From: a virus
Length of the DNA stretch: 25,053 nt
IMG/VR virus record: IMGVR_UViG_3300021425_002343
Span: 1-25,053 of that record
Reading direction: 5' to 3' (one strand)
Made by a program: the position numbers and the translations under genes. This document shows, piece after piece, positions 2,039 to 10,703 of the stretch (its first letter is position 1; every line of letters starts with the position of its first letter). The notes under the pieces are model-generated. The model was not told where the DNA came from. It saw nothing but the letters and a program-made list of their open reading frames with translations, and ran no database searches.

Positions 2039-2046
2039 GATAAATA
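2039..2046 (+). promoter_or_regulatory. Late-type promoter, GATAAATA
   Basis: GATAAATA is one mismatch from the T4 late promoter box TATAAATA and is followed by GTAT. The same GATAAATAGT string recurs before genes at 10338 and 15437. Predicted start is about base 2052, giving a 14-base leader with an AG-rich ribosome site (AAGAGAG) before the ATG at 2066. It sits in the only sizeable intergenic gap and heads the structural and lysis operon, as expected for a late promoter. Confidence 0.65.
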
Positions 2047-2065: not shown

Positions 2066-2626
2066 ATGACTGATATTTTAGATACTTTAGATGTTATTAA
2101 AAACCTAGAAAACATATATGACAGCGATCGTGCTTTCAGTGTGCTGAAAGATTACGAAAGAGTAGTCGACGAATTAGGTTTGTATGTATATGACAATTGG
2201 TCATCAGGCGAATTAGTCGAAGGACCTAAAATAGAAAGACATTGGGTTACATGCACATTTATGTGGCCAAGAGACAACATGCCAGACCCAATGGGAGGCA
2301 AGCGTTTGGTTGATTATGACTGTAAAGTTTCTTACAAAAAATGTTTTATTGTAAAACCAAGAGAAATTAAAAAACCAGATGATATAAGACCAGGAACCAA
2401 AAAAGGCAAATTAGATAAATTACCTGTATGGACAGTGACAATACAAATGCCAAAAAGTTTAATCGTGGACATCTTTGGCGGAACAATAGAAGCTGAAGAA
2501 AGAGAAGATGCATTTGCAACACAAGCACCATTAGAAGCACCAGGTGCAATGCCTGTAGATGACATGGCCGGTGGTGATCCATTAGCAGCTGGCGGCGATC
2601 CTCTAGCAGCAGGAGGCACATTATAA
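2066..2626 (+). CDS. Unknown phage protein, probably late or structural
   Basis: A 186-residue protein, first gene behind the late-type promoter. I do not recognise a named family. The N-terminal half is a mixed fold with an aromatic stretch (ERHWVTCTFMWPRDN at about 77-91) and conserved-looking DxMPDPMGGKRL. The middle is rich in Lys and Pro (KPREIKKPDDIRPGT). The last 40 residues are low-complexity Ala/Gly/Pro and end in two copies of GGDPLAA. That tail looks flexible, perhaps a linker or surface tail. There is no signal peptide or membrane segment. The stop shares one base with the next start (TAATG), so it is coupled to the 237-residue gene downstream, and both probably belong to the virion or its assembly. 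Confidence 0.8.
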   Translation: MTDILDTLDVIKNLENIYDSDRAFSVLKDYERVVDELGLYVYDNWSSGELVEGPKIERHWVTCTFMWPRDNMPDPMGGKRLVDYDCKVSYKKCFIVKPREIKKPDDIRPGTKKGKLDKLPVWTVTIQMPKSLIVDIFGGTIEAEEREDAFATQAPLEAPGAMPVDDMAGGDPLAAGGDPLAAGGTL

Positions 2627-3339
2627 TGGGATATAACAAAAGCGATTTAAGAGATCTAGTTAGAAATATATTCGAAATAGATGCATACCAAAGTAAAATG
2701 GGTGACGACGAAGATATTGTTGTTGTAAGTTTTAGTGTAAAAGAATCTGGTGCTGCAAATGATCTTGTGGACTTTATTGAAAAAGGCTACGATTTTGTGT
2801 TAGATGCTGATGCAACCAGCGGTGAATTAGAAACTGGTGATTACAAAGTATTTGTTGAAATGGAAAGAAATAGACATTCTAGTAAAAACATAATGGAGAT
2901 ACTAGACGGTGTAGGAAAAATTGCAGCTATAGAAAACTTTAAATTTAGATATCACAAAAGTTTTGCAAGTGTAGATGTTAGCGATACAGCATTAGCCGAA
3001 ACGCTACCTACAAACCCTGCAGATTATGTGGCTACAATAAGCGAAAGCAAAGTTGATAATTATAAAGAATTTTTTAATAAGAGTTATTTAGAAAGTATAA
3101 AAACAATAGGCGATACTTTGGTTGTTAAAAAAGCATACGCAGATCCATTAGGATTGAAAATCAAAAACTTTGGTCCTAGCGAAAGAATAAACGAAACTTT
3201 AGAAAAAATCAATATGAACGACTATGCAGAAATATTGTTTCTGACTAAATATCTTGGAGACTATAATGTTATGAAATTTGGTAATAAAACATTAACATTA
3301 GAAAACAAAGGGCACACTCTTGTCGTTGAAAGAATCTAA
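2626..3339 (+). CDS. Unknown phage protein, probably structural
   Basis: A 237-residue acidic protein of alternating predicted strands and helices, with no family motif I can name. Visible features are an N-terminal helix (SDLRDLVRNIFEID), a patch of DADATSGELETGDYKVFVEMER near residues 60-80, and a C-terminal part with KNFGPSERINETLEK and a final strand-rich end (KTLTLENKGHTLVVERI). It is coupled to the preceding gene by a one-base overlap and shares its late promoter. The 3' end overlaps a small Cys-rich frame that begins at a TTG inside it. There is no membrane segment or leader. Function unknown; location in the late operon suggests a virion or assembly role. Confidence 0.8.
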   Translation: MGYNKSDLRDLVRNIFEIDAYQSKMGDDEDIVVVSFSVKESGAANDLVDFIEKGYDFVLDADATSGELETGDYKVFVEMERNRHSSKNIMEILDGVGKIAAIENFKFRYHKSFASVDVSDTALAETLPTNPADYVATISESKVDNYKEFFNKSYLESIKTIGDTLVVKKAYADPLGLKIKNFGPSERINETLEKINMNDYAEILFLTKYLGDYNVMKFGNKTLTLENKGHTLVVERI

Positions 3340-3493
3340 CTTTTGCAATAACTGTGGCGGACCAAGCCATTGTGGATTGCCGGCATATAGTGAGCTACAA
3401 AACTACAATGAGCCGCCAACAACTATAAAAACTTGTAATACATGCAGATGCGGCCGCTGCACAAATACGGAAAGTAATAATAATGGCTGTTGA
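3320..3493 (+). CDS. Cys-rich mini-protein, probable zinc-binding
   Basis: A 57-residue frame fills the gap between the 237-residue gene and the endolysin, and overlaps both. It holds eight cysteines in two clusters: CNNCGGPSHC at residues 9-18 (C-x2-C-x5-C with a His beside the last Cys) and CNTCRCGRC at 39-47 (C-x2-C-x-C-x2-C), plus a terminal Cys. Such spacing is unlikely by chance and suggests zinc or another metal. No ATG exists in frame; TTG at 3320 or 3326 would be the start, so initiation is the weak point, though coupling to upstream translation could help. The frame is open from 3302. It covers the only otherwise unexplained 140 bases of this operon, which supports a real gene. Confidence 0.6.
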   Translation: MSLKESNFCNNCGGPSHCGLPAYSELQNYNEPPTTIKTCNTCRCGRCTNTESNNNGC

Positions 3494-4334
3494 AGATTTT
3501 GAATTTGAATTTACAGAAGAGATGGCAATAGAACTGCTACGTGGCAACGACGAAGCAGAAGATTGGTATGATGCAATGTGCGAAATACTACCACTTTGGG
3601 AAGTAGATACACCCGAACGTGTAGCAATGTTTTTAGCACAGTGCGGACATGAGTCAAACAACTTTAGAGTTCTAAGCGAGAACTTAAATTACAGCGCAAA
3701 AGGATTGAACGCTGTATTTCCAAAATATTTTGAAAGGGCAGGTAGAGATGCTCAAGAATATCACAGACAACCTCGCAAAATTGCGAATGTTATTTACGCA
3801 AATAGAATGGACAATGGCGATACAGATTCCGGTGATGGCTGGCGCTTTAGAGGCGGCGGCATATTGCAACTTACAGGTCGCTACAACTATACTAAATTCG
3901 GAGAAGAAGTAGAAATGTCGCCAGAAGAAGCAGTTGACTATGTGCGCACTAAAAAAGGTGCGCTAGACAGTGCTTGCTGGTTCTGGGATACAAACGATAT
4001 TAACAAGTATGCAGATGCAAGAGATGTAAAGGGTGCAACAAAACGTATCAACGGTGGCTACATTGGATTAGAAGATCGTAAAAAACATTACGAACACGCA
4101 ATGGAAGTTCTAGGTGGACATTGGGAGCCAAGTAAAATTGTATACGAAACAGTCCGTTTGGGTTCACGTGGACCCACAGTTAGAGCAGTCCAAGAAGAAT
4201 TAGAAATTGGTGCTGATGGCGTATTTGGCCGTGGCACTGAAGCTCACGTTAAAGCGTGGCAAGAAGAAAATGGACTTACACCTGACGGTGTAATGGGTCC
4301 GAAAAGTCTAGCGATAATGTTTGGAGAAGACTAG
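3483..4334 (+). CDS. Endolysin: GH19 chitinase-like lysozyme with peptidoglycan-binding domain
   Basis: A 283-residue cell-wall hydrolase. Residues about 15-212 match glycoside hydrolase family 19: the catalytic Glu lies in CGHESNNF (E57), a second acidic residue in LSENLNY (E66), and the family core WRFRGGGILQLTGRYNY at 120-136 is intact. Residues about 224-281 form a peptidoglycan-binding type 1 domain, with LGSRGPTVRAVQEEL and DGVFGRGTEAHVKAWQ repeating the V-x2-x-Q / G-x-F-G-x-x-T pattern. The order (catalytic first, binding domain last) is less common than the reverse in phage endolysins. There is no signal peptide, so a holin is needed for export. It is followed directly by small membrane proteins and spanins, which fixes its role in lysis. 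Confidence 0.93.
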   Translation: MAVEDFEFEFTEEMAIELLRGNDEAEDWYDAMCEILPLWEVDTPERVAMFLAQCGHESNNFRVLSENLNYSAKGLNAVFPKYFERAGRDAQEYHRQPRKIANVIYANRMDNGDTDSGDGWRFRGGGILQLTGRYNYTKFGEEVEMSPEEAVDYVRTKKGALDSACWFWDTNDINKYADARDVKGATKRINGGYIGLEDRKKHYEHAMEVLGGHWEPSKIVYETVRLGSRGPTVRAVQEELEIGADGVFGRGTEAHVKAWQEENGLTPDGVMGPKSLAIMFGED

Positions 4335-4540
4335 TGTTTAGTAAAAAGTGTCAAGCACACTTAAATGATGTCAACATGACAAGATGGCAGCATTTTAAAT
4401 TTGCTTGGTGGTTCTTATGGCAACTTAAAAAAGCAGGTATAGCGTTAGCTATACACAGTGTTGCTCCTAGATTTTTGCAAACATATGCTAGTGATAAAAT
4501 ACTAGAGTTAGCAGAAATTTTAAAGGATCATAAAAAATGA
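4334..4540 (+). CDS. Small membrane-associated protein (DUF6356-like), holin candidate
   Basis: A 68-residue product starting at GTG, coupled to the endolysin by the shared base of TAGTG. The pattern H-x-x-D-V-N-x-x-x-W-x-H-F-x-F-A, then KKAGIALAIHSVAPRFL, then SDKILELAEIL resembles small DUF6356 proteins (AGxAxxIHxxxPFLF ... GSxxI). One amphipathic or membrane helix spans about residues 33-50. It lies between the endolysin and the spanins, where a holin or antiholin is often found, but the hydrophobic stretch is short for a classical holin. Two larger membrane proteins downstream (5354 and 5631) compete for that role. Family resemblance is from memory and the function is inferred from position. 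Confidence 0.75.
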   Translation: MFSKKCQAHLNDVNMTRWQHFKFAWWFLWQLKKAGIALAIHSVAPRFLQTYASDKILELAEILKDHKK

Positions 4541-5007
4541 AACTATCGGGCATACTAATTGTAGTAATACTGATGATGGGCAGCATTGGTTATTGGTATT
4601 ACAACGATACACAGAAAACGATAAAAGTGTTAACAGAAAACAATGCAAAACTAGAACTTGCTGTAGAAACAAACGAAGCAGCAATTGAAAGTTTACAAGC
4701 AGATTATGCTGCCGTTGCTGCCGAAAATCAACGTATTAATGAAGCATATGCAGAAATACGTAGACAGAATAGTCGTTTAAGTAGCAAACTTGCAGATATG
4801 GATATAGGACTTCTAGCAGCAGAAAGACCTGATTCAATCGAACGTGCTGTAAACAACGGAACAGAAAATGCTGGAAGGTGTTTTGAAATACTGTCCGGTT
4901 CACCACTAACAGAGGAAGAAATAAATGCGGAAGATGGAGAAACTTTTAACAAAGAGTGTCCTTGGCTTTGGCCTGGTCCTGCTACTGTCGGGTTGCCTGG
5001 GGAATAA
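4537..5007 (+). CDS. Inner-membrane spanin subunit (Rz-like)
   Basis: A 156-residue protein with an N-terminal membrane anchor (residues about 4-22, ILIVVILMMGSIGYWYY), followed by a long periplasmic coiled coil rich in Glu, Ala, Asn and Gln (about 26-95). The C-terminal segment RCFEILSGSPLTEEEIN ... NKECPWLWPG closely follows the Rz-type i-spanin tail (RCFELxxGxPLT ... NxECP), with its two cysteines. I-spanins pair with an outer-membrane lipoprotein and fuse the two membranes in the last step of lysis. The o-spanin gene begins inside its 3' end in another frame, a classical Rz/Rz1-type arrangement. The start overlaps the preceding stop as ATGA. Confidence 0.93.
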   Translation: MKLSGILIVVILMMGSIGYWYYNDTQKTIKVLTENNAKLELAVETNEAAIESLQADYAAVAAENQRINEAYAEIRRQNSRLSSKLADMDIGLLAAERPDSIERAVNNGTENAGRCFEILSGSPLTEEEINAEDGETFNKECPWLWPGPATVGLPGE

Positions 5008-5326
5008 TCCTCAAACAATCGAAATCAGTGCAAAACCATTAGACAAGCCAGAACTCAATTTGCCACCAGTTGACGAGCTACGTATGCGTCCTGTTGAGTG
5101 GGTCATTATCAACCAAGAAAATTTAGAAGAAAAATTAGCACAACTAACTGCCAATGGACAACCTTTAGGAATGTTTGTTCTCACAGGAGAAGGTTATGAA
5201 AATCTAGGTTTAAACTTTAGTGATATACGTGCTATGGTGCAACAACAACAAGAAATTATAGTTGCGTATGAAAACTATTACAAAGCAGCTGAAGAAGCAA
5301 TGGATAATGCTATAGTAAAAGAATAA
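4925..5326 (+). CDS. Outer-membrane spanin lipoprotein (Rz1-like)
   Basis: A 133-residue lipoprotein. The basic N-terminus (MRKMEK) and hydrophobic stretch lead to the lipobox LLSGC, with the lipidated Cys at residue 24. A Pro-containing mature N-terminus follows (KPLDKPELNLPPVDELRMRP), typical of o-spanins. The gene starts 83 bases inside the i-spanin gene in a different frame, with its own Shine-Dalgarno GAGGAA at 4912-4917, 7 bases from the ATG. A second ATG at 4934 is possible. The mature part (about 109 residues) is longer than lambda Rz1 and has a helical C-terminal region (MVQQQQEIIVAYENYYKAA). Together with the upstream gene it forms a two-component spanin. Confidence 0.9.
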   Translation: MRKMEKLLTKSVLGFGLVLLLSGCLGNNPQTIEISAKPLDKPELNLPPVDELRMRPVEWVIINQENLEEKLAQLTANGQPLGMFVLTGEGYENLGLNFSDIRAMVQQQQEIIVAYENYYKAAEEAMDNAIVKE

Positions 5327-5329
5327 ATA
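5322..5329 (+). promoter_or_regulatory. Late-type promoter, AATAAATA
   Basis: AATAAATA overlaps the o-spanin stop and is one mismatch from TATAAATA. Predicted start about 5335 leaves a 19-base leader with Shine-Dalgarno GAGGG at 5343-5347, spaced 6 bases from the ATG at 5354. The spacing is what a working late promoter would need, but A/T-rich stop regions give such matches easily. Confidence 0.5.
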
Positions 5330-5353: not shown

Positions 5354-5650
5354 ATGTGGGAAATGATACAAAACATGGCGAATGATCGCACATGGATTTA
5401 CACAAGCATAGCAGGCAGTATTGCAGGTGCTATGGTTTTAGCATATTTAAGCACAACAAGAATAGGATTATGGGGATACGCTAAGTTTGACTTAGCCGTA
5501 GACTATCTTGTTGAACGTTGGGGTCTAACTTGGTTGCAACAGCCAGAAGATGCTTGGAGGAAAAAATATCCAAGAATAACAGCAAAGATAGATTCAATCG
5601 AAGCAAGGCTAGACAAATTGGAGGGTAAAAATGCCAAGAAAAAAACCTGA
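5354..5650 (+). CDS. Small single-pass membrane protein, unknown
   Basis: A 98-residue protein with one clear membrane helix (about residues 15-35, TSIAGSIAGAMVLAYL) followed by a soluble tail with WGLTWLQQPEDAWRKKYP. The C-terminal helix is charged (KIDSIEARLDKLEG) and ends in KNAKKKT. Shine-Dalgarno GAGGG is 6 bases before the start. It lies directly after the spanin pair and overlaps the next membrane-protein gene by 20 bases. Position and size allow a holin or antiholin role, but one helix plus a 60-residue cytoplasmic or periplasmic tail is not diagnostic. I know no family name for it. Confidence 0.75.
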   Translation: MWEMIQNMANDRTWIYTSIAGSIAGAMVLAYLSTTRIGLWGYAKFDLAVDYLVERWGLTWLQQPEDAWRKKYPRITAKIDSIEARLDKLEGKNAKKKT

Positions 5651-6085: not shown

Positions 6086-6093
6086 TCTAAATA
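6086..6093 (+). promoter_or_regulatory. Late-type promoter, TCTAAATA
   Basis: TCTAAATA has one mismatch to the T4 late box. The predicted start near 6099 leaves only about four bases before the DnaJ ATG at 6103 and no room for a Shine-Dalgarno site. Either the transcript is nearly leaderless or the gene is mainly read from an upstream promoter. Confidence 0.45.
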
Positions 6094-6102
6094 AGTAATA
6101 GT

Positions 6103-6909
6103 ATGGACTATTACAGCAGGCTTGGCGTGAACAAATCAGCATCGCCAGATGATATAAAAAAAGCATACAAAAAACTGGCGATGCAACATCACCCAGATCG
6201 TGGGGGAGATGAAAAAACGTTTCAGCAAATCAACGAAGCATATTCTACACTGAAAGATCCTGCAAAGCGTCAACAGTATGACAATCCTCGTCCTCAAAAC
6301 GATTTCAATTTTAATTCAGGAAATATGAATGATATTTTTGAAACTTTTTTTAGACAAACAGGACGGCAAGTTCGTAGGAATTTAGATATTACAATTAGTG
6401 TAAGAATCAAATTAGAAGATGTGTTAACAGGCAAAGATGTTTTAGGAAAATATAGGCTTAGAGATAATACAGAAGAAATAGCAACAATCAAAATTCCTCC
6501 AGGCATTGAAAATGGACAAGTGATGTCCTACAAAGGCCTAGGCGACAACACTCATAAAAATGTGCCTAGAGGAAATTTGCATGTTAGAGTTCTTGTTGAA
6601 AAACACAGGACTTATGAAAGAGATAGGTTGCATTTACGCACAACTTGTGCTATAAATGTATTTGAGTTAATATTAGGCACAGAAGTAAACATTAATAAAT
6701 TAGAAGGCGGAACTCTTAATATAAAAATTCCAAAAGGAACTAACCCAGGCACAATTCTTAGTATACCTCAACACGGATTACCAGATCGTAGGACAGGTCG
6801 CCGTGGCAACATATACTTAGAGATTAAAGGTGTTACACCTAAAATAGACGAATACGAAAAATTAGAAAAGGTTAAAAATCTATATGATGAACTTAGTTTA
6901 CGCTCCTGA
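6103..6909 (+). CDS. DnaJ-type co-chaperone without zinc finger (CbpA-like)
   Basis: A 268-residue J-domain protein. Residues 1-60 form the J domain with the HPD motif at 30-32, needed to stimulate Hsp70 (DnaK) ATPase, and the usual KKAYKKLAMQ helix before it. A short Asn/Phe-rich linker (FNFNSGNMNDIFETFF) replaces the Gly/Phe region. The zinc-finger CxxCxGxG repeats are absent, so it is a class B (CbpA-like) protein. The C-terminal substrate-binding part shows IKIPPGIENGQVMSYKGLGD and GTLNIKIPKGTNPG, the two beta-domain signatures of the DnaJ C-terminal region. It is slightly shorter than CbpA (about 306). The 3' end overlaps the deformylase start by 26 bases. It presumably redirects host DnaK, perhaps for virion assembly. 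Confidence 0.93.
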   Translation: MDYYSRLGVNKSASPDDIKKAYKKLAMQHHPDRGGDEKTFQQINEAYSTLKDPAKRQQYDNPRPQNDFNFNSGNMNDIFETFFRQTGRQVRRNLDITISVRIKLEDVLTGKDVLGKYRLRDNTEEIATIKIPPGIENGQVMSYKGLGDNTHKNVPRGNLHVRVLVEKHRTYERDRLHLRTTCAINVFELILGTEVNINKLEGGTLNIKIPKGTNPGTILSIPQHGLPDRRTGRRGNIYLEIKGVTPKIDEYEKLEKVKNLYDELSLRS

Positions 6910-7411
6910 TGTAATGTTAGAGACAGCAGTAAGACCTATGCAGTATGATGAAATACATCCTGCTACTGTTGTTCCTGATATGATATACCTGATGCAAAAA
7001 CACAGCGGCTTAGGATTAAGTGCAAATCAGGTAGGATTAGATGCTCAAATTTTTGTAATGAGACCTGTATTAAATAAAAAATGGGGAAGTCCGCTAACTG
7101 TTATTAACCCTATTATCAAAGGACTTAGCAAAGAAATGGAAATAGGCGTTGAAGGATGTCTAAGTCATCCTGATTTACTTTTGAAGGTCAAACGTCCAAT
7201 AAGCTGTATTGTTGAGTTTGATACACTGGCTTCAGATGGTAAGACTATTATTCATACCGATACAAAATTTGACGATATAGATGCAAGAATATTTTTACAC
7301 GAATATGATCACTTACATGGCATACAATTCATTGACAGAGTAAGTAAGTTTAAGTTACAATTAGCAGAGAAGAAAAGACTAAAAAAACAAAAAAGGAAAG
7401 TTAATGGTTGA
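6884..7411 (+). CDS. def: Peptide deformylase
   Basis: A 175-residue metalloenzyme that removes the N-terminal formyl group from new proteins. All three family motifs are present: GLGLSANQVG (motif 1, GxGLAAxQ), EGCLSHP (motif 2, with the metal-binding Cys) and HEYDHLHG (motif 3, HExxH with both metal-binding His and the catalytic Glu). The Lys/Arg-rich C-terminal end (KKRLKKQKRKVNG) is short and basic, unlike the longer tails of many bacterial enzymes, in keeping with phage deformylases. ATG at 6884 and 6887 are both possible starts; both lie inside the DnaJ gene. The 3' end overlaps the ClpA gene by 8 bases. Phage deformylases are known from marine phages and are thought to keep up with the phage translation load. 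Confidence 0.95.
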   Translation: MMNLVYAPDVMLETAVRPMQYDEIHPATVVPDMIYLMQKHSGLGLSANQVGLDAQIFVMRPVLNKKWGSPLTVINPIIKGLSKEMEIGVEGCLSHPDLLLKVKRPISCIVEFDTLASDGKTIIHTDTKFDDIDARIFLHEYDHLHGIQFIDRVSKFKLQLAEKKRLKKQKRKVNG

Positions 7412-9656
7412 ACCAAGCAAAAAGCTACAAGCAGTTTTTGAAAAAGCAGTAAAAGATGCACGTAAGCTATCTCACGAATATGTTACTCTAGAGCATCTAT
7501 TGTATAGTATGTTGTGTGAAGAGCAATTTGAAACTATTATAAGTGGCTTTGGCACTGATGTTGATTATATTAAAAAGAATTTAGAAAATCACCTAAAAAC
7601 TAAATTAGATGATATTAAAACAGATCTAACAAAATACAAGCCACGTAAAACACAAACTGTAGAGCGTGTTTTGAACCGTGCTTTTACACAGGTATTGTTT
7701 AATGGACGCAGTAACATTGATATTGCAGATGTGTTTATAAGTATTCTTAGCGAAAAGAAAACCTATGCATATTATATCTGCGAACAAGGTGGTATTACTA
7801 AAGAACAATTTTCTAACTATATGGCTAACGAGTTTGATGGACAGTTTGAAGAAGAAGCTGAACGTGAAAACACTGGTATGGCAAACCGTGCATTGCGTGA
7901 ATTTACAACGCATCTAAATGATGAAGTAAAGCAAGGCAAGGTTGACCCTGTTATTGGACGTGATGAAGAAATGGAACAGGTTGCACTTGCACTTGGCCGA
8001 CGCAGTAAAAGCAACGTGCTTATGGTAGGTGATCCAGGTGTTGGTAAAACTGCTATTGCAGAAGGACTTGCTTGGAAAATTGAGAACAATGATGTTCCCG
8101 ACTTCCTAAAAGAATACAATGTATATACACTAGATATTGGCAGTATGCTGGCTGGTTCTAAATATCGCGGTGATTTTGAAGAACGCTTCAAGTTGGTTTT
8201 ACAGGCTCTGCGCAACAAAGGCAAAACCATTATGTTTATTGACGAAGCACATATGATTTCAGGTGCTGGTGCAGGCGGCGGCAATAGTGCAAACGATTTG
8301 GCTAATATGTTAAAGCCAGCATTAGCAAAGGGCAATCTTAAAGTTGTTGCAAGCACTACTTGGGAAGAGTTCCGCAAGCATTTTGAAAAAGACCGTGCAT
8401 TAATGCGTAGGTTCCAGCGTGTAACTATTGACGAACCAAGTGCAGAAATGACAGTGAAAATTTTGCAAGGTGTTAAAAGATATTACGAAGATTATCACAC
8501 AACTACAATTACACAAGATGCAATTGAAGCAGCAGTAAAACTGAGCATCAAGTATCAAACAGATAAAAAATTGCCTGATAAAGCAATTGACTTAATTGAC
8601 GTTGCCTGTGCTAGATTCAAAGTTCGAAATCAAACTGAAAACAAAATTGTTACAGAAGATAGCATACAGTTTGAACTTGCAAAAATGGTAAATCTACCAG
8701 AAGAACAAGTCAAAGAACGTGAAGCAGAAAATCTTGTGCACCTTTCGGATAATCTTAAAAAGGTTGTTTATGGACAAGATAATGCAATTGAATCTATTGT
8801 TGATAAAATCCTAGTTGCACAAGCAGGACTAAAAGAAGAAAACAAGCCAATTGGTTCGTTTGTGTTTATGGGTCCAACTGGTGTAGGTAAAACTGAACTT
8901 GCAAAACAATTGAGCAGCCACATGGGTGTAAAACTTGTAAGATTTGACATGAGCGAATTCCAAGAAAAGCACAGTGTAAGCAAACTCATTGGTTCGCCTC
9001 CAGGATATGTTGGGCATGAAGAAAGTGCTGGCCAACTTATTGAAAAATTACAAGAATCGCCAAACTGTGTTCTATTGTTAGACGAAGTAGAAAAAGCACA
9101 TCCTGATGTGTCACAAATTTTGCTACAACTTATGGACAATGGTAAAATCACAGGCAGTAATGGCAAGGAAGCAGATGCAAGAAATGCAACACTTATCCTA
9201 ACTACAAACTTAGGTGCTCAAGAAGCTGAAAAAAACAACATTGGATTTAGCGATAGCATGGATAGAGATTACGATGATAGTGAATTGAAAAAATTCTTTC
9301 CACCTGAATTCCGTAATAGACTAGATGGTATCATTACATTTGGCAAGTTGGACAAACCGGTTATGATGAAGATTGTTGGTAAGTTCTTGTTGACTTTGAA
9401 AGAACAGGTAAAAGACAAAGGCATTAACATAAAACTGTCGGACGAAGCATTAGACTATCTTGTTGACAAAGGCTTTGACAGTAAAATGGGTGCTCGTCCT
9501 CTGCAACGTGTAATCGATCAAGAAATCAAGCGTCCTCTTAGTAAATTAATGTTATTTGGAGAATTAAAAAATGGCGGCAATATTAACATAGATTTTGTTG
9601 ATGAAAATCTCGAGCTGTTGGTGGTAATGCAAGATGAACTTGTTGAAAACACGTAA
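7404..9656 (+). CDS. clpA: ClpA-type AAA+ protein unfoldase
   Basis: A 750-residue double-ring AAA+ protein, nearly the length of E. coli ClpA (758). Residues 1-140 resemble the ClpA N-domain. D1 has Walker A GDPGVGKT (209-216), pore loop KYRG (253-256), Walker B IMFIDEAH (276-283) and RALMRRF. D2 has Walker A GPTGVGKT (490-497), pore loop GYVG (534-537), Walker B LLLDEVE (557-563) and sensor-2 GARPL (696-700). There is no ClpB/Hsp104 coiled-coil insert, so it is ClpA/ClpC-like rather than a disaggregase. The segment NNIGF (611-615) aligns with the ClpA IGL loop that docks on ClpP and retains the I-G-(F/L) tripeptide. No clpP lies in the window, so host ClpP is the likely partner. Confidence 0.95.
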   Translation: MVEPSKKLQAVFEKAVKDARKLSHEYVTLEHLLYSMLCEEQFETIISGFGTDVDYIKKNLENHLKTKLDDIKTDLTKYKPRKTQTVERVLNRAFTQVLFNGRSNIDIADVFISILSEKKTYAYYICEQGGITKEQFSNYMANEFDGQFEEEAERENTGMANRALREFTTHLNDEVKQGKVDPVIGRDEEMEQVALALGRRSKSNVLMVGDPGVGKTAIAEGLAWKIENNDVPDFLKEYNVYTLDIGSMLAGSKYRGDFEERFKLVLQALRNKGKTIMFIDEAHMISGAGAGGGNSANDLANMLKPALAKGNLKVVASTTWEEFRKHFEKDRALMRRFQRVTIDEPSAEMTVKILQGVKRYYEDYHTTTITQDAIEAAVKLSIKYQTDKKLPDKAIDLIDVACARFKVRNQTENKIVTEDSIQFELAKMVNLPEEQVKEREAENLVHLSDNLKKVVYGQDNAIESIVDKILVAQAGLKEENKPIGSFVFMGPTGVGKTELAKQLSSHMGVKLVRFDMSEFQEKHSVSKLIGSPPGYVGHEESAGQLIEKLQESPNCVLLLDEVEKAHPDVSQILLQLMDNGKITGSNGKEADARNATLILTTNLGAQEAEKNNIGFSDSMDRDYDDSELKKFFPPEFRNRLDGIITFGKLDKPVMMKIVGKFLLTLKEQVKDKGINIKLSDEALDYLVDKGFDSKMGARPLQRVIDQEIKRPLSKLMLFGELKNGGNINIDFVDENLELLVVMQDELVENT

Positions 9657-10329
9657 ATTACATTATGGCAAATACTTATATAAAACATCTTTTCCGAATA
9701 AACTAGCAGGACACTTTAGGACTGAATTACAAAAAGATGGCTGTTATGGCCATCTTCGTGTAAAGCTAGATGAACTGCACAGTGTATTTGTTCCAGGCTC
9801 AACAGAAATAAAACTGCCTTGGGCATACCATACACGCATATACGATAGTATTCCTGTAGAAGATTATTATGATGCAATTGACTTATACCGGCTTCTTGGT
9901 AAATCATCTGATATAGAATTTACACTTCGTTGCGAAGCATTTAGATTAAATCTTTACAGTAACGACAGAGATTTTATAACTAAGATAGTCAATATAGTAA
10001 GACACAAATTTGTTGAATTTTGGGAACCTGATCCAGAAGATGCAAAAATACTAACAGCTGAAAACAATGTAATTATTGTAAATGAACCACCCGATTATGA
10101 ATATAAAATTACATTAGGCAAAAATCGCGGCGAACCTAGTCTTGCAAAATGGATTGATGCAAATCCAAATTTAGGAAAAATGGGATCAATAGCCAAAGAC
10201 GAATGCTACAGGTCTGGATGGGTAAAGGGTTATTATTTCTTTGTCAGAGATGACAAAACACTGTTAATAGCACAAATGATAGTTGGCAACAATATACAAA
10301 GAGTAGACCGTTTGGTGTATAACAGATAA
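9634..10329 (+). CDS. Unknown protein downstream of ClpA
   Basis: A 231-residue protein that begins 23 bases inside the ClpA gene. I do not recognise a family. The N-terminus is basic (KTRKLHYGKYLYKTSF), followed by a region rich in acidic and aromatic residues (DYYDAIDLYRLLG; KFVEFWEPDPEDAK). The C-terminal third has a WIDANPNLGKMG segment and a strand-rich end with GYYFFVRDDKTLLIAQMIVG. There is no membrane segment, signal or Cys cluster. An 8-base perfect hairpin (9734-9756) sits within it. A late-type promoter overlaps its last codons. Coupling to clpA could mean an adaptor or substrate role, but nothing in the sequence shows this. Confidence 0.8.
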   Translation: MNLLKTRKLHYGKYLYKTSFPNKLAGHFRTELQKDGCYGHLRVKLDELHSVFVPGSTEIKLPWAYHTRIYDSIPVEDYYDAIDLYRLLGKSSDIEFTLRCEAFRLNLYSNDRDFITKIVNIVRHKFVEFWEPDPEDAKILTAENNVIIVNEPPDYEYKITLGKNRGEPSLAKWIDANPNLGKMGSIAKDECYRSGWVKGYYFFVRDDKTLLIAQMIVGNNIQRVDRLVYNR

Positions 10330-10332
10330 ATA
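10325..10332 (+). promoter_or_regulatory. Late-type promoter, GATAAATA, at a leaderless position
   Basis: GATAAATAGT is identical to the copies before 2066 and 15437. With T4 spacing the transcript would begin at base 10338, the A of the next gene's ATG. There is no Shine-Dalgarno site before that ATG, so the mRNA would be leaderless. The motif overlaps the upstream stop codon. Confidence 0.6.
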
Positions 10333-10337
10333 GTTAT

Positions 10338-10703
10338 ATGCCAAGTAACAGTGAAACAATTTTAACACAAAATATACATCCTGGAGATAGCACAACCGAA
10401 ACTATCACAGGAGAAAAATACAAAGGAGACGGATACTACGGACGTAGTGACGGATTTCATAGTGTTCAATATAACCTAATTGGGTTTATTGGCACAGTCA
10501 GTATGCAAGCCACTTTAGCACTTGAACCAACTGATGATGATTGGTTTAGTGTTGCAGGCACCTCTCATACCAGCATTGCTACAGAAACCGATCTTAGCGA
10601 TGGGGGACATATCTATAACTTCACTGGCAATTATGTTTGGGTAAGAGTAACTGTTACTAATTGGACTGATGGCACAGTAGATAGTATATATTTAAATCAT
10701 TGA
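10338..10703 (+). CDS. Beta-rich protein, probable virion structural component
   Basis: A 121-residue protein rich in Thr, Ser, Gly and aromatic residues with alternating short strands, typical of a beta-sandwich. The C-terminal part (GHIYNFTGNYVWVRVTVTNWTDGTVDSIYLNH, spread over about residues 91-121) resembles small decoration or structural proteins I recall from T4-like phages, in which an FTGNYVWVRV-type strand pair recurs. There are no Cys residues, membrane segment or leader. The only candidate start is ATG 10338, exactly where a late transcript is predicted to begin, and no ribosome site precedes it. Virion location is inferred from composition and the promoter type. Confidence 0.8.
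   Translation: MPSNSETILTQNIHPGDSTTETITGEKYKGDGYYGRSDGFHSVQYNLIGFIGTVSMQATLALEPTDDDWFSVAGTSHTSIATETDLSDGGHIYNFTGNYVWVRVTVTNWTDGTVDSIYLNH

Follow-up and report, generated by a model that had tools for sequence, protein, structure and literature searches.

A conserved phage operon for DnaJ, peptide deformylase and ClpA and its proposed role in phage-run protein quality control

The 25,053-base IMG/VR virus record IMGVR_UViG_3300021425_002343, analysed here over its whole length and called the window, is part of the larger genome of an uncultured phage and carries on its + strand an operon for a J-domain protein (DnaJ), a peptide deformylase (PDF), a ClpA-type unfoldase, and a fourth protein of phage-only fold. 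The DnaJ-PDF-ClpA unit is conserved well beyond this genome, with an older DnaJ-ClpA pair at its core and a predicted leaderless start at DnaJ. The features of the operon are as follows.

6091..6097, + strand: ATAAGTA box, predicted promoter of a leaderless DnaJ mRNA, at -12 to -6 of the DnaJ start
6103..6909, + strand: J-domain protein assigned to class B, 268 aa (Pfam, NCBIfam, and motif checks)
6190-6198, + strand: HPD of the J domain, followed by a short linker and then DnaJ_C; zinc finger absent
6884..7411, + strand: PDF, 175 aa, with motifs GLGLSANQ, EGCLS, and HEYDH
7404..9656, + strand: ClpA-type double-ring AAA+ unfoldase with N domain, 750 aa (Pfam, NCBIfam, and motif checks)
9240..9248, + strand: Ile-Gly-Phe tripeptide for ClpP docking (ClpA residues 613-615), corresponding to IGL 617-619 in E. 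coli
9634..10329, + strand: fourth operon gene, with a phage-only fold (model pLDDT 94.5) that matches neither a family nor a PDB fold
10326..10332, + strand: ATAAATA box, the next promoter, lying 12 nt ahead of the 10338-10703 ATG and marking where the operon ends

Consecutive open reading frames overlap by 26 nt (DnaJ/PDF), 8 nt (PDF/ClpA), and 23 nt (ClpA/9634-10329), and the box at 10326 closes the DnaJ-PDF-ClpA-9634 operon. A first-pass annotation of this DNA had taken overlaps of 8-26 bases between the first three genes as the sign of a proteostasis operon whose products are made together. The overlaps are as described and the operon is real: its co-transcription is supported, and its translation is probably coupled through the overlaps. 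DnaJ, PDF, and ClpA are under purifying selection (dN/dS 0.02-0.38, mostly <0.15, in eight pairs). All three proteins score below the NCBIfam curated cut-offs and are therefore regarded as divergent members of their families.

Relatives were defined as ClpA homologues in viral contigs, dereplicated at 95% ClpA identity (n=47); most of these contigs may be incomplete, so that the absence of a gene is weak evidence here and below. DnaJ lies ≤3 kb from ClpA in all 66 loci that have room upstream, accompanied by PDF in 53. The 47 dereplicated relatives comprise 35 with DnaJ-PDF-ClpA, 10 with DnaJ-ClpA, and two that are truncated, and of 30 loci found from DnaJ alone, 27 have ClpA downstream and one more is cut. 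Overlaps are also kept, at 11-35 nt for DnaJ/PDF (34/35) and 4-17 nt for PDF/ClpA (32/35). Cultured jumbo phages show both arrangements, DnaJ-PDF-ClpA in Sinorhizobium phage Phosso and DnaJ-ClpA in Agrobacterium phage Atu_ph07 and Pseudomonas phage PAC2. The survey of related phages proposed in the first-pass annotation thus finds a linkage that is not peculiar to this genome. In phages 121Q, GAP32, and Vibrio 2.275, ClpA is present and DnaJ is not adjacent to it.

Phosso (PV764938), which gives the best DNA polymerase match (50%), has the same DnaJ-PDF-ClpA unit as the window along with its own ClpP, ClpS, and HSP20, but its genes lie at least 1 nt apart instead of overlapping, and the box and leaderless layout are absent. 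Atu_ph07, the second-best polymerase match (48%), encodes ClpA, ClpP, ClpS, ClpX, ClpB, and DnaJ (PMC6102473) and is the published precedent for most parts of the system. Its DnaJ (gp293) is directly upstream of ClpA (gp292) as in the window, and its ClpP and ClpS lie elsewhere in the genome, HSP20 being ~0.75 kb from ClpS; it differs in lacking PDF and the ATAAGTA box at DnaJ, and its DnaJ is 34% identical. The order PhoH (on the opposite strand), two virion genes, DnaJ, ClpA, and a further virion gene is shared by the window and the Arenbergviridae PAC2 and PA5oct (examined in PAC2), although in these phages the unit has no PDF, the DnaJ match covers part of the J domain only, and ClpA is 42% identical. 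The literature searched held no published infection time course for PA5oct. Clp, DnaJ, HSP20, and ClpS genes were already known from jumbo phages (PMC6102473, PMC7824862), and the moraphages, aquatic jumbo phages described in 2025, have ClpA and PhoH in their core and DnaJ/DnaK in some members, with deformylase unmentioned (PMC12619734). No description of DnaJ-PDF-ClpA as a unit, of its leaderless promoter, or of the HSP20-ClpS thermometer unit considered below was found in the literature searched.

Judged from its sequence, the J protein belongs to class B (type II), with a J domain bearing HPD, a DnaJ_C domain, and no zinc finger. Pfam DnaJ (1e-22) and DnaJ_C (9e-32) both exceed their cut-offs, and among the relatives HPD is kept in 45/45 and the CxxCxGxG zinc finger is absent in 45/45. 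It is not bacterial DnaJ proper (class A): besides lacking the zinc finger, it reaches 185 bits with the best NCBIfam model, DnaJ_bact, against a cut-off of 377. The J protein Rki of phage RB43 also has a phage-encoded J domain with HPD, but its C-terminal domain is unrelated and it is no generic DnaK cochaperone (PMC3486835). The standard DnaJ_C domain of the window protein suggests that it may help DnaK rather than block it.

ClpA contains the Pfam domains AAA, AAA_lid_9, AAA_2, ClpB_D2-small, and Clp_N (5e-6), all above cut-offs. Its best NCBIfam model is ClpA (E 4e-264), at 878 bits against an equivalog cut-off of 993, and the protein is for that reason named ClpA-type and not a strict orthologue. 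Residues were checked in 48 sequences at E. coli ClpA numbering. K220/T221, E286, R339/R340, K501/T502, E565, and R643, in the two AAA+ modules, are invariant (48/48), and the ATPase, pore, and arginine positions as a whole vary little or not at all. The docking tripeptide has I or V, then G, then F in 48/48 at each position (IGF in the window). Equivalents of E23, E28, T81, and R86 in the N domain, which we take to be the ClpS contacts, are kept in 47, 47, 48, and 46 of 48. The domain layout, docking loop, presumed ClpS-facing residues, and ATPase motifs are shared with the E. coli ClpAPS N-end-rule protease (PDB 1r6b, 6w1z, 7uiv); the differences are IGF for IGL, the missed equivalog score, and a separate lineage. 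In a careful maximum-likelihood tree, which has some long branches, phage ClpAs are split from bacterial ClpAs by a 100/98 branch, and the window ClpA groups with one contig, L001, at 100/100. The role of the IGL loop and the docking of ClpS on the N domain have been described for ClpA (PMC9663308).

Two sets of database matches to ClpA were set aside. A host call from the best matches in bacterial genome bins, one in a Neomarinimicrobiota bin (68%) and one in a Pacearchaeota bin (53%), was rejected because the contigs, L167 (PBPT01000016.1) and L169 (NZDU01000042.1), have a phage-like gene order and look like mis-binned jumbo phage. The top-ranked matches to a named phage, 'Acinetobacter phage MD-2021a', have bacterial metabolic neighbours and group with E. 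coli ClpA, and were discarded as bacterial DNA; the records (L247, CAKLQF020000008; and CAKLQH020000043) hold a bacterial clpS-clpA pair and look like bacterial chromosome.

The operon is set among virion and lysis genes, with two head-type virion genes, an endolysin, and spanins upstream and a virion gene downstream, and several of these genes are preceded by promoter-like boxes.

2040..2046, + strand: T4-late-type ATAAATA box before virion structural genes 2066-2626 and 2626-3339; 35/35 relatives
3483..5326, + strand: lysis block upstream of the operon, with endolysin (3483-4334) and Rz/Rz1-type spanins (4537-5007, 4925-5326)
5323..5329, + strand: T4-late-type ATAAATA box, the next promoter upstream of the operon, before 5354-5650; NTAAATA in 36/36 relatives
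10338..10703, + strand: virion structural protein-like gene 3' of the operon (phrog_14467, E 2e-10), conserved in PAC2

Within the dereplicated loci, GATAAATA boxes number 127 on the + strand and 3 on the - strand, an asymmetry far greater than that of scrambled octamers. The ATAAATA-type box is as constant before virion gene 10338 (28/28) as before virion gene 2066 and gene 5354. T4 late promoters carry their octamer at -13 to -6, which places the predicted transcript start at the A of the DnaJ ATG. ATAAGTA or CTAAGTA lies exactly at -12 to -6 from this ATG in 42/43 relatives and in 15/15 independent flanks, and a Shine-Dalgarno sequence is found before DnaJ in 0/43, before PDF in 32/36, and before ClpA in 46/46. 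A sister clade (L082-L107) has at the same place TTGAC, ~17 nt, and TATAAT (or CATAAT) ending 6-7 nt before the ATG, a sigma-70 promoter present in 16/16 distinct contigs, again with no Shine-Dalgarno sequence; the two promoter types would therefore yield the same leaderless DnaJ mRNA.

The boxes of the window lineage match the T4 late promoter TATAAATA, the late promoter NATAAATA known from cyanophages (PMC2984593), and the ATAAATA found before structural genes of jumbo phage CBB (PMC5259590). A gp55-type late sigma is encoded in 13/20 relatives, and by their motif the structural-gene boxes, with ATAAATA and no -35 element, are promoters of the T4 late type. Since the box at DnaJ reads ATAAGTA, the promoter class is uncertain for DnaJ itself. 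The strict T4 form TATAAATA has no match in the window, the lineage using GATAAATA, and a generic sigma-70 scan was dropped when its match count proved about the same as in shuffles. Virion gene 10338 shares the layout of DnaJ, with its box 11-12 nt before the ATG and a Shine-Dalgarno sequence in 0/28, and a leaderless late mRNA is predicted for it as well.

PDF is the variable member of the unit. Pfam Pep_deformylase (3e-32) is above its cut-off, peptide deformylase is the best NCBIfam model (cut-offs missed), and the metal and active-site motifs are intact in 38/38, all three being present. PDF is missing from the unit in 10/45 dereplicated loci that have DnaJ beside ClpA, lies ~190 kb from the DnaJ-ClpA unit in one 357-kb relative (G018), and was found nowhere in the Atu_ph07 genome, which marks it as an addition to an old DnaJ-ClpA pair. 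The first-pass annotation had proposed that deformylation exposes N-termini for ClpA. The data do not support this: PDF is dispensable, ClpS-type N-degrons (Leu/Phe/Tyr/Trp) are not products of deformylation, and neither MetAP nor L/F-transferase was detected in the 20 relatives scanned, mostly possibly incomplete contigs that make this last point weak evidence. The link from PDF to N-degrons is accordingly weak. A possible role is given by the fMet-degron view, in which PDF shields new proteins by taking off a degradation signal (PMC4745127). Alternatively, PDF may have no joint function and be a cargo gene, of a kind common in marine phages and known from many cyanophages and vibriophages, that was inserted into the DnaJ-ClpA pair; its absence or displacement in the loci just named fits this. 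The kept overlaps and strong purifying selection on PDF speak against it, as does the fact that both the window lineage and the distant Phosso have PDF placed between the other two genes, and we consider this alternative rather unlikely. It concerns PDF alone and is compatible with the explanation preferred below for DnaJ and ClpA.

Candidate partners of ClpA are encoded elsewhere in related genomes. ClpP occurs in 8/24 long relatives and also in G028, Phosso, and Atu_ph07, with Ser-His-Asp aligned, and ClpS in 10/25 relatives, with the N-degron pocket (NDD/E-TPM and His motif) in all eight aligned; these alignments include rows for ClpP and ClpS of E. coli that were entered by hand. Relatives such as G004, G015, G018, G021, Phosso, and Atu_ph07 have both genes, and the close relative G004 holds DnaJ, PDF, ClpA, ClpP, ClpS, and HSP20. 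The earlier suggestion that ClpA works with ClpP and ClpS is supported insofar as the docking determinants, presumed ones in the case of ClpS, are kept; its assumption of host partners is not, because ClpP and ClpS are both phage-encoded in several large relatives and the partner need not be the host's. In G007, G024, and G004, relatives close to the window, ClpP (L139, L140, L141) is lengthened by a 10-residue insertion that follows the catalytic His region, and reads IHR, not IHQP.

In 10/10 ClpS-bearing relatives, HSP20 and ClpS share a strand and are either immediate neighbours or no more than ~1 kb apart. DnaK is found in three relatives and adjoins HSP20-ClpS in G020 and G021. Eight HSP20 leaders were compared (L145-L151 and L265, from G021, G024, G011, G020, G004, G015, G018, and G023). 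Their predicted fold has two hairpins, one upstream and one terminal; within the terminal one UCUUGCUU pairs with the ribosome site AAGGAG, clearly in 7/8 and weakly in G021, and TCTTGCTT is invariant in 8/8. Predicted opening with temperature is gradual. With Rfam ROSE_3, two leaders matched at the right place below the gathering score, with E 5e-4 (L265) and 0.13; Rfam as a whole gave nothing at gathering thresholds. On these predicted folds the leader looks like a ROSE-type RNA thermometer. In G021 (L145 195-1486) HSP20-ClpS is followed by heme-oxygenase-like and fatty-acid-desaturase-like genes, as read by eye from the translation.

The region is best interpreted as a phage-run protein quality-control operon serving virion production, probably in middle to late infection; we put the probability of this reading at roughly 55%. 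Transcription would begin at the operon's own promoter at the DnaJ start codon, DnaJ would be read from the leaderless mRNA, and PDF and ClpA would be translated after it by coupling through the overlaps. DnaJ may bring host DnaK, or in rare cases a phage DnaK, to proteins that are nascent, unassembled, or aggregated, and PDF would raise deformylase capacity to match the surge of new chains. Most likely, ClpA would join phage-made ClpP and ClpS, whose genes lie elsewhere in the genome, in a protease of the ClpAP(S) type; it may work with host ClpP as well. With ClpS and ClpP it would clear what cannot be saved while virion proteins stay soluble, the net effect being also the removal of failed or unwanted proteins during infection. 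We infer these complexes, their timing, and their substrates from the genes, motifs, linkage, promoter-like boxes, and the partner genes of relatives.

Several points weigh against this interpretation. By analogy to RB43 Rki (PMC3486835), the J protein could inhibit DnaK. Phosso, Atu_ph07, and PAC2 have no box at DnaJ, and with ATAAGTA instead of ATAAATA in the window lineage and a sigma-70 promoter in the sister clade, timing may be early or mixed. The window is a 25-kb fragment in which no ClpP was found, so ClpP and ClpS are known from relatives only, and ClpP went undetected in several long, possibly incomplete relatives, among them a 330-kb one with ClpS.

An early takeover of the host would explain some of these points differently: the J protein would titrate or redirect host DnaK, and ClpA/ClpS/ClpP would destroy chosen host or defence proteins through N-degrons, much as the first-pass annotation had supposed in letting the phage decide which proteins are folded or destroyed. 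In its favour, ClpS retains the N-degron pocket motif and ClpA its presumed ClpS-facing side, expression early in infection would agree with the consensus sigma-70 promoter of the sister clade, the DnaK-targeting phage J protein Rki is an early one, and action of phage ClpP/ClpS on host proteins has been proposed (PMC7824862). However, the J protein has the standard client-binding DnaJ_C domain that Rki lacks, virion and lysis genes and late-type boxes surround the operon, the constant pairing of ClpS with the small heat-shock protein HSP20 points to aggregates and not to chosen host targets, and L/F-transferase and MetAP are absent in the relatives scanned (n=20). The virion and lysis setting, the late-type promoters, and the ClpS-HSP20 pairing fit general quality control during virion production no less well; selective control over host or phage proteins is at most a possibility, and an early takeover seems improbable. 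Still less probable is a ClpP-free role in morphogenesis, with ClpA as unfoldase or remodeller and DnaJ as assembly chaperone for head or tail, which would suit the position beside virion genes, two of head type and another downstream, that is kept across very distant phages including PAC2, the proposal of ClpA as an assembly translocase (PMC7824862), and the phages in which ClpA has no adjacent DnaJ, but which would make superfluous both the ClpP-docking loop kept in 48/48 and the phage ClpP that accompanies ClpA in many relatives.

The quality-control interpretation can be extended to a self-contained proteostasis network run by these jumbo phages, consisting of the leaderless DnaJ-PDF-ClpA operon, a thermometer-controlled HSP20-ClpS operon, and phage ClpP. 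This broader proposal is tentative, falling somewhat short of an even chance. If it is true, the leaderless start would sustain DnaJ translation while ordinary initiation is disturbed, and the thermometer would couple the supply of HSP20, and perhaps of ClpS, to stress from heat or misfolding. Phage chaperone and protease genes, usually listed as sporadic extras, would here fall into two conserved, separately controlled operons with matching partners. The predicted leaderless start, kept despite a change of promoter type, is a sharp single-nucleotide prediction, and the question of a phage-run N-degron or aggregate protease becomes directly testable in the culturable Phosso. For protein-degradation tools, the system would also offer a compact ClpAPS set that arose by natural evolution.

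The fourth gene, 9634-10329, follows ClpA in nearly all relatives. R29, R99, and P132 of its product are invariant, structural relatives occur only in uncultured phages and Atu_ph07, and a PDB fold search with the confident model gave no match, only uncharacterised phage proteins being similar. The window also has, at 236-931, a redox gene that is unusual for a phage and resembles ferredoxin-NADP reductase (NCBIfam E 2e-28, under the cut-off).

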